DNA of 64,000 nucleotides from Bradyrhizobium quebecense. GTDB taxonomy: Bacteria; Pseudomonadota; Alphaproteobacteria; Rhizobiales; Xanthobacteraceae. The DNA is taken from NCBI RefSeq assembly GCF_013373795.3, contig NZ_CP088022.1:5766001-5830000 (forward strand), in the 5' to 3' direction. Position numbers and translations under genes: made by a program. The notes under the pieces were generated by a model. The model made no database searches and was not told the DNA's origin. It was given only the letters and a program-made list of their open reading frames with translations. Below, in pieces: positions 13,990 to 59,489 of this stretch; position 1 is the first letter of the stretch, and each line of letters opens with the position of its first letter.

Positions 13990-14694
13990 TTATCCTCTAT
14001 ATGGTTCGAGCACCAGGTCGCGGTTGACGATCACCCTCACCGGGAATCCCTGGCGGATCGTCAACGTTGGCTGGATGTTGAGATTGCGGCGAACCAGCTG
14101 CTGTCCTGTCTGATTTGCGGAATCCTCCGCTCCACGCCGGAGCGCAGCAATGAGGTCGCTGTTGGTGTTGCCTGCGTCCGCGCCCGAATTGACCTCCGTG
14201 CCAAAAGCCAGCAGTGTCGAAAGCGCTGCTGCGCCCAAGAGCTCTTTCCAGTGATTGTCGACCTCGTCCTCGAGGCCGGCGTATCCAGATGCATCTGCGC
14301 CAGGCTGCCGTTCCAGGACGATCGAACGCCCGTTCGGCATAATCAGCCGCGTCCAAACCAACAGTACGCGCGACTGGCCAAATGCCGCCTGGCTGTCGTA
14401 GGTGCCGATCAGCCTTCGAGCTCGCCGCGTTGGATTGTCATAGACAGCTTCCGTCACCTGCGCCGTGATTTGCCCCGGTAGATCGGATCGAATGCCCGTG
14501 ATGAGAGCGGCCGGAATGACTGTGCCGGCCTGCACCACAAACGGCGAAGCTGGCCTCACGAGGCGATCCGGACTGGTCGTCCGGCGGTCGACGGATGCGC
14601 TGACGAAGGCGAGCTTCCGTTCCTGGCCATTCTGGGCGAACGTTTCATCAGATGATGTCGTGGCATTCGAAGGCGTTTCATTGGCCGATGTCAC
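13990..14694 (-). pseudogene. trbI: TrbI (VirB10-like) conjugation channel protein, N-terminus lost
   Basis: C-terminal part of the VirB10/TrbI outer channel protein of a type IV secretion system: AGTVIPAALITGIRSDLPGQ, VLLVWTRLIMPNGRSIVLER, GLEDEVDNHWKELLGAAALS and LNIQPTLTIRQGFPVRVIVN. The cytoplasmic and transmembrane N-terminus expected for a protein of about 400 residues is missing, and a stop lies about 70 bases upstream of the GTG at 14694. About seven residues that normally precede RLIGTYDSQ also seem deleted. No other trb gene is nearby, so this is a relic of an integrative conjugative element. Confidence 0.78.
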
Positions 14695-27569: not shown

Positions 27570-28820
27570 TCACGATGTGTCGCATCGGAACGGTGATGTT
27601 CGAGGGCTGGGGCGTCTGAAGCTATGTCGAAAGCGCTCAATGATGCGCATGACGCCACCACAATCGGGACAGGCAGGAACCTCGGCCCGGGTTTGAGCCT
27701 CCGAATCCACAGGCGACGGCTGGCCATCGTTTGGGGCTGTTCGCTCATGATCGAGAAGTTCGCGGCAAAGGGCGAGCTTGGCAGCGCGATGGCGGTTGGC
27801 CATGAAGCCGAAGTGGCGGATGCGGTGGAAGCCGTCAGGCAGCGTATGAAGCAGGAAACGGCGAATGAACTCATCGGGCTTGAGATTCATGATCTTTGTC
27901 GCGCTGTTTTGGCGATAGTCCTTCCATGAGAAGGCGACATGATCGTCGTCGAGTGCGACGAGCCGGCTGTTGGCGATCGCGACGCGATGGGTGTAGCGGC
28001 CGAGATAGGCCAGGACCTGTGCGGGTCCGCCGAAGGGCCGCTTGGCGTAAACAACCCAGTTGATGCGTCGCATGGCGTCGAGGTGGGCCGCAAAGGCAGC
28101 CGGCTCGGCCAGAGCTCCGAGATCGCCGAAGAAACGGAAGGCACCGGAGTTGAAGGCTGCCGACAGACGTTTGAGAAAAAGTGTGCGAAATAGTCTGGAC
28201 AACGGTTTGACGGCCAGGAAGAAGTTCGGTCGGCAAGCGGTCCAGCGCGCGCCATCGGGCGAGAGGCCGCCACCCGGAACGACGCAATGGACGTGGGGAT
28301 GATGCATCAGCGTCTGTCCCCAGGTGTGGAGGACGGCGACGCCGCCGATCGCACCGCCGAGCCGGCGTGGATTGGCGGCGAGCGTCGTCATCGCCTCGGC
28401 GGCAGCCTTGAACAGGATGGCATAGACGACGGCCTTGTTCTGGAAAGCGATCGCGGCGATCGGTGCGGGAAGTGTAAAGACGACGTGGAAATAGGGAACC
28501 GGAAGCAGGTCGGCTTGACGCGCGGCGAGCCACGCGGCTCGGGCTCTCCCCTGACACTTCGGACAGTGCCGATTGCGGCAGGAATTATAGGCAACGCGTG
28601 TCGTGCCGCAGTCGTCGCAAGCCTGCATGTGGCCGCCGAGCGCCTCGGTCCGGCACGCAACGATCGCGCTCATCACGCGCCGCTCGACCCGCCCCAGATG
28701 ACCGGCATGTACACGGCGATAGGCGTCGCCATGCCGGCACAGAATATCGGCAATCTCGATGGCGGGCCTGTTGGAGCGGATGTCGGAGCGGGTCATGACC
28801 CGCATCCCGCTGCGGGTCAT
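27570..28820 (-). CDS. IS91-family rolling-circle transposase, copy 1
   Basis: 416-residue HUH/Y2 transposase that nicks and joins one DNA strand through an active-site tyrosine. N-terminal zinc-binding module at residues 68-89 (CDDCG, then [12 protein letters not shown]), HUH motif HPHVH at 174-178, and paired tyrosines in AYLGRYTHR (Y272, Y276). ATG at 28820 overlaps the TGA of the upstream integrase frame (GGATGACC). Length and motifs are complete, so this protein may be functional. The C-terminal 60 residues include a second Cys pair (CPDCGG). One residue differs from copy 2 (F versus L near residue 228). Confidence 0.9.
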
Positions 28821-29678
28821 CCAGGTGGCGTCACCTCCAGCGACAGGCGATCGAGCGGGCTCTGCGTCGCTCGGATCGTATCGGTGGCGACCTGCGTGTA
28901 GCGCGCTGTCGACGACAAATTATTGTGCCCGAGCAAGACCTGGATGATCCGGATATCGGTTCCGTTCTCGAGAAGATGTGTCGCGAAGCTGTGGCGCAGC
29001 GTGTGCAGCGTGACGCTGCTTGGTCAGGCCCGCAGCCTTCACCGCCGACCGGCAGGCGGCATGCAGCACGGTCTGATCGATCGGATGATCTTCGTCACGA
29101 CCAGGGAACAGATAAAGCCGCGGCCGGGCGAGCCGCCAGTAGGTGCGCAGGATGCCCAGCAGCTGGGGCGACAGCATCACGTTGCGATCCTTCGCGCCCT
29201 TGCCGTGGCGCACCTGGATGACGCCGCGGGCGCTGTCGATGTCTTCGATCCGCAGTCCCGCAACCTCCGAGGCCCTGAGCCCGGCCGCATAGGCGGTGGT
29301 GAGCGCGGCGCGGCTCTTCAGGCTCGATACCGCTTCAAGAAACTGAACCACTTCGTCGGCGCTGAGAACGACCGGCAGCTTGCGCGGTTCTCGCGCATAG
29401 GGAATGCGCTCTGGGATGAGCGCCTCGCCGAGCGTGACGCCGTAGAAAAACCGTAGCGCACAGACGATCTGGTTCAGCGCCGGCCATGAGATGCCGGTCG
29501 AGACCAAATGCACCTGGAAGGCGCGGACGTCTTCCAGCTCTAACCGGTCAGGCGATCGGCCAAAATAGCGGCTGAACTTCGAAACCGCGCTGATGTAGGA
29601 TCTTTGCGTCGCCGGCGACAGATTGCGGACGGTCATGTCTTCGATCATGCGGCGGCGAAGAGGGCTCAAATCGGCCAT
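28817..29678 (-). pseudogene. Tyrosine recombinase of the IS91-type element, copy 1, frameshifted
   Basis: Phage-integrase-family recombinase. ATG at 29678 (MADLSPLRRRMIEDMTVRNL) with AGGAG seven bases upstream. SAM-like domain LSPATQRSYISAVSKFSRYF, then catalytic Arg in AAGLRASEVAGLRIEDI, Lys in HGKGAKDRNV. One extra base near 29015 throws the C-terminus out of frame; in the next frame the expected [20 protein letters not shown] (HxxR) and the tyrosine in [11 protein letters not shown] are intact up to the stop at 28817. The same extra base is present in copy 2. Confidence 0.85.
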
Positions 29679-29803
29679 CTCGATACTCCTGTCTGAGGGG
29701 GTGGGCTCCAACACCCACATCCTCTCAGCCAGGAGGCGATCTATGCCACCTTGCCCCCTACGCCGCGGCAGCGGCTTAGTTCAATCCCTAGAGTCCACAC
29801 CAC

Positions 29804-49699: not shown

Positions 49700-50950
49700 T
49701 CACGATGTGTCGCATCGGAACGGTGATGTTCGAGGGCTGGGGCGTCTGAAGCTATGTCGAAAGCGCTCAATGATGCGCATGACGCCACCACAATCGGGAC
49801 AGGCAGGAACCTCGGCCCGGGTTTGAGCCTCCGAATCCACAGGCGACGGCTGGCCATCGTTTGGGGCTGTTCGCTCATGATCGAGAAGTTCGCGGCAAAG
49901 GGCGAGCTTGGCAGCGCGATGGCGGTTGGCCATGAAGCCGAAGTGGCGGATGCGGTGGAAGCCGTCAGGCAGCGTATGAAGCAGGAAACGGCGAATGAAC
50001 TCATCGGGCTTGAGATTCATGATCTTTGTCGCGCTGTTTTGGCGATAGTCCTTCCATGAGAAGGCGACATGATCGTCGTCGAGTGCGACGAGCCGGCTGT
50101 TGGCGATCGCGACGCGATGGGTGTAGCGGCCGAGATAGGCCAGGACCTGTGCGGGTCCGCCGAAGGGCCGCTTGGCGTAAACAACCCAGTTGATGCGTCG
50201 CATGGCGTCGAGGTGGGCCGCAAAGGCAGCCGGCTCGGCCAGAGCTCCGAGATCGCCGAAGAAACGCAAGGCACCGGAGTTGAAGGCTGCCGACAGACGT
50301 TTGAGAAAAAGTGTGCGAAATAGTCTGGACAACGGTTTGACGGCCAGGAAGAAGTTCGGTCGGCAAGCGGTCCAGCGCGCGCCATCGGGCGAGAGGCCGC
50401 CACCCGGAACGACGCAATGGACGTGGGGATGATGCATCAGCGTCTGTCCCCAGGTGTGGAGGACGGCGACGCCGCCGATCGCACCGCCGAGCCGGCGTGG
50501 ATTGGCGGCGAGCGTCGTCATCGCCTCGGCGGCAGCCTTGAACAGGATGGCATAGACGACGGCCTTGTTCTGGAAAGCGATCGCGGCGATCGGTGCGGGA
50601 AGTGTAAAGACGACGTGGAAATAGGGAACCGGAAGCAGGTCGGCTTGACGCGCGGCGAGCCACGCGGCTCGGGCTCTCCCCTGACACTTCGGACAGTGCC
50701 GATTGCGGCAGGAATTATAGGCAACGCGTGTCGTGCCGCAGTCGTCGCAAGCCTGCATGTGGCCGCCGAGCGCCTCGGTCCGGCACGCAACGATCGCGCT
50801 CATCACGCGCCGCTCGACCCGCCCCAGATGACCGGCATGTACACGGCGATAGGCGTCGCCATGCCGGCACAGAATATCGGCAATCTCGATGGCGGGCCTG
50901 TTGGAGCGGATGTCGGAGCGGGTCATGACCCGCATCCCGCTGCGGGTCAT
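49700..50950 (-). CDS. IS91-family rolling-circle transposase, copy 2
   Basis: 416 residues, identical to copy 1 except near residue 228 (SGALRFFGD here, SGAFRFFGD in copy 1). HUH motif HPHVH at 174-178, tyrosine pair in AYLGRYTHR, zinc module [12 protein letters not shown]. Intact, ATG overlapping the integrase TGA. Confidence 0.9.
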
Positions 50951-51808
50951 CCAGGTGGCGTCACCTCCAGCGACAGGCGATCGAGCGGGCTCTGCGTCGC
51001 TCGGATCGTATCGGTGGCGACCTGCGTGTAGCGCGCTGTCGACGACAAATTATTGTGCCCGAGCAAGACCTGGATGATCCGGATATCGGTTCCGTTCTCG
51101 AGAAGATGTGTCGCGAAGCTGTGGCGCAGCGTGTGCAGCGTGACGCTGCTTGGTCAGGCCCGCAGCCTTCACCGCCGACCGGCAGGCGGCATGCAGCACG
51201 GTCTGATCGATCGGATGATCTTCGTCACGACCAGGGAACAGATAAAGCCGCGGCCGGGCGAGCCGCCAGTAGGTGCGCAGGATGCCCAGCAGCTGGGGCG
51301 ACAGCATCACGTTGCGATCCTTCGCGCCCTTGCCGTGGCGCACCTGGATGACGCCGCGGGCGCTGTCGATGTCTTCGATCCGCAGTCCCGCAACCTCCGA
51401 GGCCCTGAGCCCGGCCGCATAGGCGGTGGTGAGCGCGGCGCGGCTCTTCAGGCTCGATACCGCTTCAAGAAACTGAACCACTTCGTCGGCGCTGAGAACG
51501 ACCGGCAGCTTGCGCGGTTCTCGCGCATAGGGAATGCGCTCTGGGATGAGCGCCTCGCCGAGCGTGACGCCGTAGAAAAACCGTAGCGCACAGACGATCT
51601 GGTTCAGCGCCGGCCATGAGATGCCGGTCGAGACCAAATGCACCTGGAAGGCGCGGACGTCTTCCAGCTCTAACCGGTCAGGCGATCGGCCAAAATAGCG
51701 GCTGAACTTCGAAACCGCGCTGATGTAGGATCTTTGCGTCGCCGGCGACAGATTGCGGACGGTCATGTCTTCGATCATGCGGCGGCGAAGAGGGCTCAAA
51801 TCGGCCAT
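50947..51808 (-). pseudogene. Tyrosine recombinase of the IS91-type element, copy 2, frameshifted
   Basis: Same sequence and same extra base (near 51145) as copy 1. N-terminal and Arg/Lys catalytic parts are in one frame (KSRAALTTAYAAGLRASEVA); the HxxR and Tyr parts are in the next. Because the identical shift is in both copies, the element moved or was duplicated after the shift arose, or the shift is bypassed by recoding. Confidence 0.85.
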
Positions 51809-52072
51809 CTCGATACTCCTGTCTGAGGGGGTGGGCTCCAACACCCACATCCTCTCAGCCAGGAGGCGATCTATGCCACCTTGCCCCCTACGCCGCGGCA
51901 GCGGCTTAGTTCAATCCTGAATGTCGATCGGCCCTAGGGCCCCCTACGCATTGGAGCAGCCGCAAGGATCATACATCTGGCAGGTTCTCGCGCCGCATGC
52001 GCCCGAGGTGTCAAACGCCATCCGGAACTGCCCCCTTTGCGTCATGAAGAACTGCCTCCACCATCGGGATTA

Positions 52073-57533: not shown

Positions 57534-59120
57534 TCAACAGAGTTGCCGAACGAAACGTTCTGCCCATAAAAAACGTGCCAAGGTGCTCGTTGCGGAAAAT
57601 TCGTGTGTTGTTATCACCCTGTTCAAGAGTGCCATGACAGCCTCTTGCGAAACCAAGCCGAAGTCGGCCAAGGCGCAAGAAGCAAGCTGTGATGAAATTA
57701 TGTCCGCACGAGCCGCAATCGCCTTTGGCAGTACAAGCGCGAAAGTCTCCTTTGCGTAACCGCGTGGAAATACGTCAGAGCCCAAGCGCTCACGCAAGTA
57801 AGAACGGAGGAGCTCCTTGCCCGAGCGAAGTGCAAACGGAAGCTTCGCTCCAAAATTGATCAATCTCGGATCGCCGAATGGGCGGACGGGCCAAAGTCCT
57901 CGCGTCGCGAGTGGGCGAGCATGACAAAGACTTGCGAGCAGAGTTGTGGATAGAGTGGCGCTGATGGGGGCGCTAAAAAGGAAGGATGAACGAGCGGCGT
58001 CAAGCCCGCGTTTCGTCAATAGGTCTTCTGCAAGCCCAAGCGCGATATCCAGGTCGGGTGAAGACGGAGATCTGGGTTCCTCCTCGTCGCTGCTGAAGCG
58101 AGCGCAAAGCTCGTCTCCTCCTATGCCGGTCCAGATTATTTCGCAGCCATCACCTCGGAACCGATCCCAGAGTGACCCGAACGCCTCAAGGTAATACTCT
58201 GAAATGAGTGGCAGGCGTCCTTTCAGGTCAAGATCTAGATCAATCGCCGGCATGTGGGCGTGCATGTCAACTTTGTGATCGCGACAATCCAGTGCGCTCA
58301 AAATGCTAGCTCGGCGGTCAATCTGCTTGGGGCTACTCCCGTCGCCCAATAGTATCCCGCCACATGCTAGCGATGCTACACTCTCGCTAACAGCAACTGC
58401 GACGGAAGCGGAGTCCATTCCTCCGCTCAGCTCCACAGCGTTTGCGCAGAAGGCCGTCGGCCGCGAACGAACAACCGCCTGAAGAGTATCAGAAAACTCA
58501 AGGACATAATTGCTCCCCTCTCGTCCAGAGAGCTCAGGGGCTGATGAGGTTGTCGCGCCGTACTCAAATGACGTTTGCGATCTGTCGACGTACAAGGTGG
58601 CGCCAGCAGTCAGCAGATTAACGCCAACGCGGGCCTGTCGCGCAGAGTAGAACGTTCTCATAGATAGATGATGGGCTATGATTTCTGTATCGATCGTTCC
58701 CGATTTATCCAAGAGATCCATGAAATCCCAGGAGAGCGTAACCGTACGAGTGCGCTCCTCCACGTGGAAGTAAATTGGGAGGCTGGCTATATAGCCTGCT
58801 CGTACACGCAACCGAGGGCCCCGTCGAGCCGCCTCGATCACGATAAAATCGAGCGGCCAGTGCATACATTTCTGGTAGTGCTGACGAAACTGATCCATAG
58901 ACGCATGGGCTATTACGGCCGAATGAACGCCAGCCTCGTCCGCCGCTACTTGACGCTCACGTATGACGAAGAACCATTGTTCAGTGTTCTTCACTAACGA
59001 ACTCTCAAGACTCTTATGTTGGAACGGCCGGATGTAGCTTTCACCAACCTGTATCGAACTGCCTTTGGCAACAGGATCGTAGTTTTCCAAGTCGGCTATT
59101 TTCAGAGTGGCCTTGAGCAT
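57534..59120 (-). CDS. Asparagine-synthetase-like peptide cyclase (lasso C-protein candidate)
   Basis: 528 residues. The C-terminal half is the ATP-pyrophosphatase domain of asparagine synthetase B: PPi loop LSGGMDSASVAVAVSE at 231-246 and TGIGGDELCARF at 331-342. The N-terminal 190 residues follow the glutaminase fold pattern (GYIASLPIYFHVEERTRTVT, LTAGATLYVDR), but residue 2 is Leu, so the Cys nucleophile of asparagine synthetases is missing and glutamine cannot be the nitrogen donor. Lasso macrolactam synthetases have this architecture: they adenylate an Asp/Glu side chain and close it on Gly1 of the core. ATG at 59120 has AGGA four to five bases upstream. It lies 59 bp after a 47-codon peptide gene, with a hairpin between them. 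Intact although surrounded by dead IS elements. Alternative: another amidotransferase-like amide synthetase. Confidence 0.68.
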   Translation of the reverse strand: MLKATLKIADLENYDPVAKGSSIQVGESYIRPFQHKSLESSLVKNTEQWFFVIRERQVAADEAGVHSAVIAHASMDQFRQHYQKCMHWPLDFIVIEAARRGPRLRVRAGYIASLPIYFHVEERTRTVTLSWDFMDLLDKSGTIDTEIIAHHLSMRTFYSARQARVGVNLLTAGATLYVDRSQTSFEYGATTSSAPELSGREGSNYVLEFSDTLQAVVRSRPTAFCANAVELSGGMDSASVAVAVSESVASLACGGILLGDGSSPKQIDRRASILSALDCRDHKVDMHAHMPAIDLDLDLKGRLPLISEYYLEAFGSLWDRFRGDGCEIIWTGIGGDELCARFSSDEEEPRSPSSPDLDIALGLAEDLLTKRGLDAARSSFLFSAPISATLSTTLLASLCHARPLATRGLWPVRPFGDPRLINFGAKLPFALRSGKELLRSYLRERLGSDVFPRGYAKETFALVLPKAIAARADIISSQLASCALADFGLVSQEAVMALLNRVITTHEFSATSTLARFLWAERFVRQLC

Positions 59121-59137
59121 TGGTTCCTTAAACGTTG

Positions 59138-59159
59138 CCGCCTCTCGTGGGAGAGGCGG
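59138..59159 (-). terminator. Hairpin between peptide gene and cyclase gene
   Basis: On the minus strand CCGCCTCTC-CCAC-GAGAGGCGG: perfect 9-bp GC-rich stem, 4-base loop, then CAACGTTT. It sits 20 bases after the peptide stop and 17 before the cyclase ATG. Partial terminators or protective hairpins in this position are known from proteobacterial lasso clusters and favour peptide over enzyme expression. Confidence 0.68.
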
Positions 59160-59179
59160 TAACGGAGTTAAGAATGATC

Positions 59180-59323
59180 TTAAAGGTAGCCGAAGTTACT
59201 GCTGTCGTTAGGGAAGGGGCCCTTCTCTCCCTGAATAGTGGGAGGTGGCAGTACCGGTAAGGGGAGGTCAGTTGTATCGGGCCGCGATGGCCGCTTAGGC
59301 GCGTCTGCAGTTGTGCTCTTCAT
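59180..59323 (-). CDS. Lasso-peptide-like precursor (47 residues)
   Basis: ATG at 59323 with GGAG seven bases upstream. The leader (residues 1-31) is Thr-, Pro- and Lys-rich: MKSTTADAPKRPSRPDTTDL then PLPVLPPPTIQ. The proposed core (32-47) is GEKGPFPNDSSNFGYL: Gly1 and Asp9 have the spacing for a nine-residue macrolactam ring, leaving the tail SSNFGYL with bulky Phe13 and Tyr15 as possible plugs. The single gene downstream encodes a cyclase-type asparagine synthetase. Odd points: the conserved leader Thr is at -3 (T-I-Q-G), not the usual -2, and no protease, RRE or exporter gene is adjacent. Too short for routine gene calling. Alternative: another RiPP class, or a chance frame. Confidence 0.6.
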   Translation of the reverse strand: MKSTTADAPKRPSRPDTTDLPLPVLPPPTIQGEKGPFPNDSSNFGYL

Positions 59324-59489
59324 GTCAATCTCCGGGTGATCGGGCTTCTCGTCGTCTCAAATCTAGGCTTCAGTAAAAGCCAGAGAGAGTGGCGCGGCAC
59401 CGTGTCGAGCCACAATGGAAGGTCTCTCATGTGAGAAGGCGGGCGACAACCTACCAATGTCGGCAGTTGGATGACGGTGCTGGACAGAA
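59324..59489 (-). promoter_or_regulatory. Upstream region of the lasso-like locus
   Basis: 166 bp between IS256 copy C and the precursor gene must hold its promoter. I see no nod box, tts box or NifA site (a TGT-N13-ACA pair has the wrong spacing). A 60-residue frame here (59320..59502) is not supported. Confidence 0.35.

Follow-up and report, generated by a model that had tools for sequence, protein, structure and literature searches.

A short precursor gene paired with an asparagine-synthetase-fold enzyme in Bradyrhizobium quebecense: a candidate two-gene peptide system with a recurrent Lys-x5-Asp motif

In the window, a stretch of 64,000 nucleotides of the Bradyrhizobium quebecense contig NZ_CP088022.1, two intact genes of 47 and 528 codons lie 59 nt apart on the minus strand (57534-59323). 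From sequence comparisons, we consider it rather probable that they form a minimal RiPP system whose enzyme would join the side chains of an Asp and a Lys of the short peptide into a lactam of seven (sometimes eight) residues. The pairing of the precursor gene with the enzyme gene recurs across bacterial genomes, together with a Lys-Asp motif near the precursor C-terminus whose two residues are six, sometimes seven, positions apart. The features are the following:

57534..59120, minus strand: asparagine-synthetase-fold enzyme of 528 aa, proposed Lys-Asp lactam synthetase (Pfam PF00733, homologues, AlphaFold2 model)
57741..57752, minus strand: KETF (residues 457-460), likely active-site Lys-Glu (E458 and F460 invariant in an alignment of 23 sequences)
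58410..58427, minus strand: SGGMDS (residues 232-237), ATP pyrophosphate loop (motif conservation)
59124..59129, minus strand: AAGGAA, likely ribosome site of the enzyme gene (read from the sequence)
59180..59323, minus strand: precursor peptide gene, 47 aa, MKSTTADAPKRPSRPDTTDLPLPVLPPPTIQGEKGPFPNDSSNFGYL (open frame, ATG, ribosome site)
59204..59206, minus strand: Asp40 codon, proposed activated carboxylate (Asp of the Lys-x5-Asp motif; Glu there not enriched)
59222..59224, minus strand: Lys34 codon, proposed ring amine donor (Lys of the Lys-x5-Asp motif, 59/74 non-redundant loci)
59330..59333, minus strand: GGAG, likely ribosome site of the precursor gene (read from the sequence)

The preliminary description had reported a 47-codon gene with a ribosome site ahead of an intact asparagine-synthetase homologue, and both reading frames are indeed open at these coordinates, with GGAG 6 nt ahead of the precursor ATG and AAGGAA 3 nt ahead of the ATG start codon of the enzyme. 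The C-terminal 16 residues of the precursor are GEKGPFPNDSSNFGYL, in which Gly is residue 32 and Asp residue 40, that is, at position 9 counted from Gly, as had been described. Co-occurrence in other Bradyrhizobium was likewise borne out: the precursor has a tblastn match at 24 of the 27 other loci searched (a count which includes some places fetched repeatedly), and the three loci without a match (L035-L037) hold mere pieces of the synthetase. The genes are a real precursor and enzyme pair, kept as a unit, and Asp40 is conserved in the relatives. Within Bradyrhizobium, residues 1-29 of the precursors are conserved and residues 30-47 sort into distinct types; between the window copy and the copy on the genome's own plasmid, dN is 0.05 over the former part and 0.40 over the latter, and some precursor pairs of the same type have a dN of 0 in the core. 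A constant putative leader followed by a varying putative core is the usual RiPP pattern and, with a short precursor gene adjoining that of a modifying enzyme, the pair has the make-up of a RiPP in the broad sense. Compared with NCBIfam and Pfam, the precursors gave no match, bar one sub-threshold DUF6788 hit to one of them.

To follow this pair beyond Bradyrhizobium, 157 loci were searched, of which 146 had an enzyme match, 123 were usable and 74 were non-redundant (under 85% identity). Hosts include Bradyrhizobium, Mesorhizobium, Cupriavidus, Dyella/Luteibacter, Gluconacetobacter, Streptomyces and others. The family spans Proteobacteria and Actinobacteria, and Bacteroidota and Myxococcota have one member each. 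Scored in the last 45 residues of the upstream short ORFs, Lys-x5-Asp is present at 59 of the 74 non-redundant loci (including L202, a doubtful low-complexity ORF) against 14.2±3.4 in 60 residue shuffles, whereas 404 other ORFs from these loci hold it 15 times (Fisher p 9e-47). Allowing Lys-x5 or x6-Asp raises the count to 64/74. The motif was first spotted by eye and then tested; loci fetched afterwards were counted separately and carry it in 15 of 19 cases, one of the 15 being the doubtful L202. Over the same 74 loci, neither Lys-x5-Glu (6 vs 11.5±3.0 shuffled) nor Arg-x5-Asp (24 vs 24.1±3.1) is enriched, and that Asp is apparently preferred to Glu is in line with the chemistry of asparagine synthetase. 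Other Lys-Asp spacings are raised as well (shuffled values in brackets), namely x6 at 26 (13.2), x9 at 27 (13.2), x11 at 28 (12.0) and x12 at 21 (11.4); the x9 and x11 excess arises because part of the set has an extra Lys at -4 and an extra Asp at +12, and those members could therefore carry more or other bonds. Where a second Lys and Asp are conserved, as at -1 and +12 in the actinobacterial precursors, two bonds may be formed.

Lys-x5-Asp is strict in an independent pool of 75 actinobacterial precursors (P0107-P0181), gathered by an actinobacterial profile that itself contains the motif: Lys and, counted from it, Gly +3, Ser +5 and Asp +6 are present in 75/75, an additional Lys at -1 in 67/75 and an Asp at +12 in 74/75, these extra residues making a second crosslink possible. 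The automatic scan found no Lys-x5/6-Asp ORF at 10 of the 74 loci; among these, L072 has one in a longer ORF and L070, L073, L079 and L082 seem to be without a precursor. These last four loci belong to Rhodanobacteraceae and have enzymes with no recognisable upstream precursor, L070, L073 and L079 forming one tree clade. At L104, two adjacent precursor-like ORFs lie 80 and 226 nt upstream of a single enzyme gene, both with Lys-x5-Asp. Phylum-wide and Sphingomonas-family searches returned the query genomes alone and, with few candidates scored per genome, give lower bounds. Taking all loci together, we regard it as an evenly balanced proposition that the family is a widespread new two-gene RiPP class, with a stand-alone ligase, no RRE, partner or linked protease, and a Lys-Asp side-chain lactam predicted over Lys-x5-Asp.

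The enzyme of the window matches the Pfam Asn_synthase family (PF00733) with 32.1 bits for a cut-off of 21, and scores far below cut-off with the McjC-type lasso cyclases (NF033535, 20.4 bits vs 525) and the albusnodin/ikarugamycin cyclase subfamily (NF033561, 36.4 bits vs 300). In its pyrophosphate loop, S232, G234, D236 and S237 are invariant in the 23-sequence alignment; S[GS]GxDS is present at 69/74 loci, and two of the five loci where this strict motif was not found read SAGxDS. KETF, which presumably corresponds to the AsnB motif, appears as KE[TSN]F at 41/74 loci, the active-site Lys being present in part of the family and absent from the actinobacterial branch of the 23-sequence alignment. 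A GxGGDE-type motif was not found in 10 of the 74 enzymes. In glutamine-dependent asparagine synthetases, the N-terminal nucleophile is a Cys which is residue 2 before removal of Met; with start codons picked by script, 0/74 enzymes have a Cys at this position. The AlphaFold2 model of the enzyme (pLDDT 85.9, pTM 0.87) placed beta-lactam synthetase best among the top Foldseek ranks, together with TsnB9, AsnB and carbapenam synthetase, the whole-chain superpositions being loose (TM about 0.55, rmsd 8-10 A). The ring-closing enzyme initially proposed holds as far as its fold is concerned, and it plausibly closes a ring on Asp40; its assignment to the lasso class is unsupported. Matches to PF11080 and MscS in other small ORFs of the window were judged to be noise.

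From these data we infer the bond of the proposed peptide, its topology, leader removal, export and activity. The degenerate N-terminal domain of the enzyme would make no ammonia from glutamine, and its ATP domain would adenylate the beta-carboxylate of Asp40. The epsilon-amine of Lys34 would then attack the activated Asp40, giving a side-chain-to-side-chain lactam over seven residues with, in the window peptide, a seven-residue C-terminal tail behind the ring. Since the enzyme has no ammonia source of its own and the Lys-Asp distance is fixed, Asp adenylation followed by attack of the Lys side chain is the simplest reading. As the family shows no conserved partner protein, recognition of the leader would have to be ensured by the enzyme itself; the leader would be removed by an unlinked protease and, in Bradyrhizobium, the product might be exported by a neighbouring ABC exporter.

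The window pair had first been described as a possible lasso peptide system, which it probably is not, judging from gene content and conservation. The Gly taken as residue 1 varies beside homologous enzymes, an outcome that the preliminary description had itself named as refuting a lasso: the window reads PPTIQGEK and other copies PPTTSYPK, PPTIKTPK or PPTIKWPK; where the window has Gly32, copies from related Bradyrhizobium have Tyr, Thr or Trp. Over the 74 loci, Gly-x7-Asp is below its shuffled background (19 vs 26.8±3.8), as are Gly-x5-[DE] and Gly-x6-[DE]. Across 146 loci (67 with flanks of up to 10 kb, the rest mostly 1.5 kb), no ORF reached E<=1 against the McjB-type protease family (PF13471), the profile recovering 3/3 positive controls, and the whole genome of the window has no PF13471 match over the cut-off (best 14.9 bits vs 26). 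McjB-type matches occur elsewhere in 18/27 and 15/22 other carrier genomes, although often weakly in the first set, and a protease could thus act in trans there. Of 64 motif-bearing loci, one has the lasso leader motif YxxPxL and none the full pattern with Thr at -2. In a quick tree, with family members gathered by profile, the 74 enzymes fall on one side of a branch with SH-aLRT 100, apart from 14 lasso cyclases and 4 other synthetases, the lasso rows themselves not being one group; three of the 16 lasso loci chosen (L230, L243, L244) had no cyclase ORF and were dropped, and L203 was added. Lasso precursors were unusable as a motif control, their gene order being too varied. True lasso clusters with their own cyclases of 600-643 aa are found elsewhere in the same genomes in Dyella lutea (L134) and Mesorhizobium amorphae (L136). 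The idea of a lasso cluster broken by loss of its protease was rejected, since none was found at the loci of distant relatives either. On the B. barranii plasmid pBb1S5a (L138), a McjB-like match of 42.4 bits adjoins an ORF of 406 aa with weak similarity, in pieces, to the enzyme, near transporter ORFs and about 195 kb from the plasmid's own pair; this is possibly a decayed true lasso cluster.

Other chemistries could be carried out on the same peptide. Quite unlikely, in our view, is a non-canonical lasso, in which an unlinked protease would cut before residue 32 and the freed alpha-amine would be joined to Asp in a 9-residue ring. The enzyme does belong to the lasso cyclase superfamily (the NF033535 match), Asp stands at position 9 from the residue-32 equivalent in much of the family with tails of 6-14 residues, [GASC]-x7-Asp slightly exceeds its shuffles (57 vs 52.0±3.4, 74 loci), and the McjB-type proteins encoded elsewhere in many carrier genomes could supply the cut. 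A lasso peptide with Asn at position 1 is reported (PMC12670498) and, by the title of a work cited, pseudomycoidin is made without leader peptidase. Against this, the residue-32 equivalent is Gly in the window and Tyr, Thr, Trp, Ala, Leu or Glu elsewhere, and a fixed Lys two places after this variable position 1 would be left unexplained; the absence of a McjB-type ORF from the 146 loci and, above the cut-off, from the window's genome, the near absence of the leader pattern and the separation from the 14 lasso cyclases weigh in the same direction. Still less credible is a cut directly ahead of Lys34 which would free the Lys alpha-amine for a 7-residue macrolactam with Asp, lasso-like or not. 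The spacing would suit it, the residue ahead of the motif Lys is Pro in 26/58 precursors, and 7-residue lasso rings are known in the xanthomonins. Such a ring would not need a Lys side chain; Arg-x5-Asp and Gly-x5-Asp, however, do not rise above background, and no linked protease was found. An unlikely but somewhat better placed alternative is that Asp is activated to give a product other than a lactam (amidation, nitrile, aspartimide or small-amine conjugate), Lys serving for recognition alone. In other RiPPs, according to PMC13060819, the C-terminus is amidated or turned into a nitrile by asparagine-synthetase-like enzymes, and the conservation of Asp, not Glu, resembles asparagine synthetase chemistry. 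However, the glutaminase Cys is absent, so the ammonia for amidation would need an external source, and a fixed Lys-Asp spacing, with x5/x6 shifts alone, suits a ring better than recognition. The Lys-Asp side-chain lactam is the reading that we prefer.

The symbiosis island in which the pair had been placed is not supported: the genome's sole nodA match lies 2.73 Mb from the window, and the flanking ORFs scanned encode a Mutator-type transposase, an IS3-type transposase and serine recombinases. A TrbI-like conjugation protein is encoded at 13990-14694, and the window may lie within an integrated conjugative element. Two integrase ORFs (28920-29720 and 51050-51850) encode an identical protein and adjoin ORFs (27570-28820 and 49700-50950) of the same length and start whose sequences are not identical; integrases and neighbours together are, by these matches, a duplicated segment. 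A second copy of the enzyme, 91% identical, is present in the same genome on contig C4, a plasmid, together with three shorter matches to pieces of the enzyme gene, two of them close together; pieces lie at C1:5834381-5834708 and C1:8646648-8646863. An ABC exporter gene, pointing away from the pair, is found upstream at L048 (with a Pfam match), L051, L052 and L055, and is shortened or displaced at L049 and L050. Beside the genome's own plasmid copy it is cut short, and no exporter adjoins the window pair. The enzyme gene is followed by one for a phosphotransferase (APH) at L061 (Mesorhizobium) and L080 (Cupriavidus). Common to 10 of 32 distant loci (e.g. L092 8040-9377) is an ORF of roughly 458 aa close to the pair, perhaps a regulator, the one tested having no Pfam match; another ORF, near 4 of the 32 and acetyltransferase-like by eye, was set aside since the one tested gave no Pfam match. 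A doubtful possibility, although compatible with the ring reading, is that the window pair is a dying or silent remnant of a real family. Its position amid insertion sequences, the lack of a sigma-70-like promoter found on its strand, the state of the exporters and the pieces of further copies point that way, but both ORFs are intact with ribosome sites, the enzyme has a dN (0.040) below its dS (0.129) relative to the plasmid copy, and a related genome (L023) retains the same core residues.

If the Lys-Asp ring is confirmed, side-chain lactam formation would have arisen twice in evolution, the second time on a scaffold of asparagine-synthetase type, and the system, with one precursor and one enzyme, would perhaps be the simplest that macrocyclises peptides. 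NCBI and JGI name the family enzymes 'asparagine synthase-related', similar synthase names or 'hypothetical', and actinobacterial precursors are also 'hypothetical'; tools needing a lasso protease or RRE could therefore miss the family, for which Lys-x5-Asp is a simple search rule. In Bradyrhizobium, the core differs among otherwise near-identical plasmid and chromosomal copies, which would fit strain competition.

The two-gene precursor-enzyme family, widespread in bacteria, is apparently undescribed: no description of a Lys-x5-Asp two-gene family was found in open-licence literature, subscription papers being mostly outside the search. Among known systems, lasso cyclases (McjC type NF033535; NF033561) share the asparagine-synthetase fold, ATP, an adjoining precursor gene and, as proposed here, an Asp lactam, but differ by their McjB-type protease, leader, fixed residue 1 and separate tree position. 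Beta-lactam and carbapenam synthetases, the best fold matches to the window enzyme, are asparagine-synthetase-type enzymes that close an intramolecular amide, on small molecules and not on ribosomal peptides. PMC13060819 counts about 3,800 asparagine-synthase-family proteins near RiPP elements, of which about 3,500 are tied to lasso peptides and about 300 are uncharacterised. The same paper presents PesC of nitrilobacillin, TsrC and ScdTA as asparagine-synthetase-like enzymes acting on RiPP precursors, which amidate or nitrilate the C-terminal carboxylate, whereas the window enzyme would form a Lys-Asp lactam; PesC can use glutamine and belongs to a many-gene cluster, whereas the window system has two genes. 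Finally, the graspetides (omega-ester/amide peptides such as microviridins) are RiPPs with Lys-Asp/Glu side-chain lactams like the one proposed here, but they are made by ATP-grasp ligases, whereas the window enzyme belongs to PF00733 and has an asparagine-synthetase-type fold.
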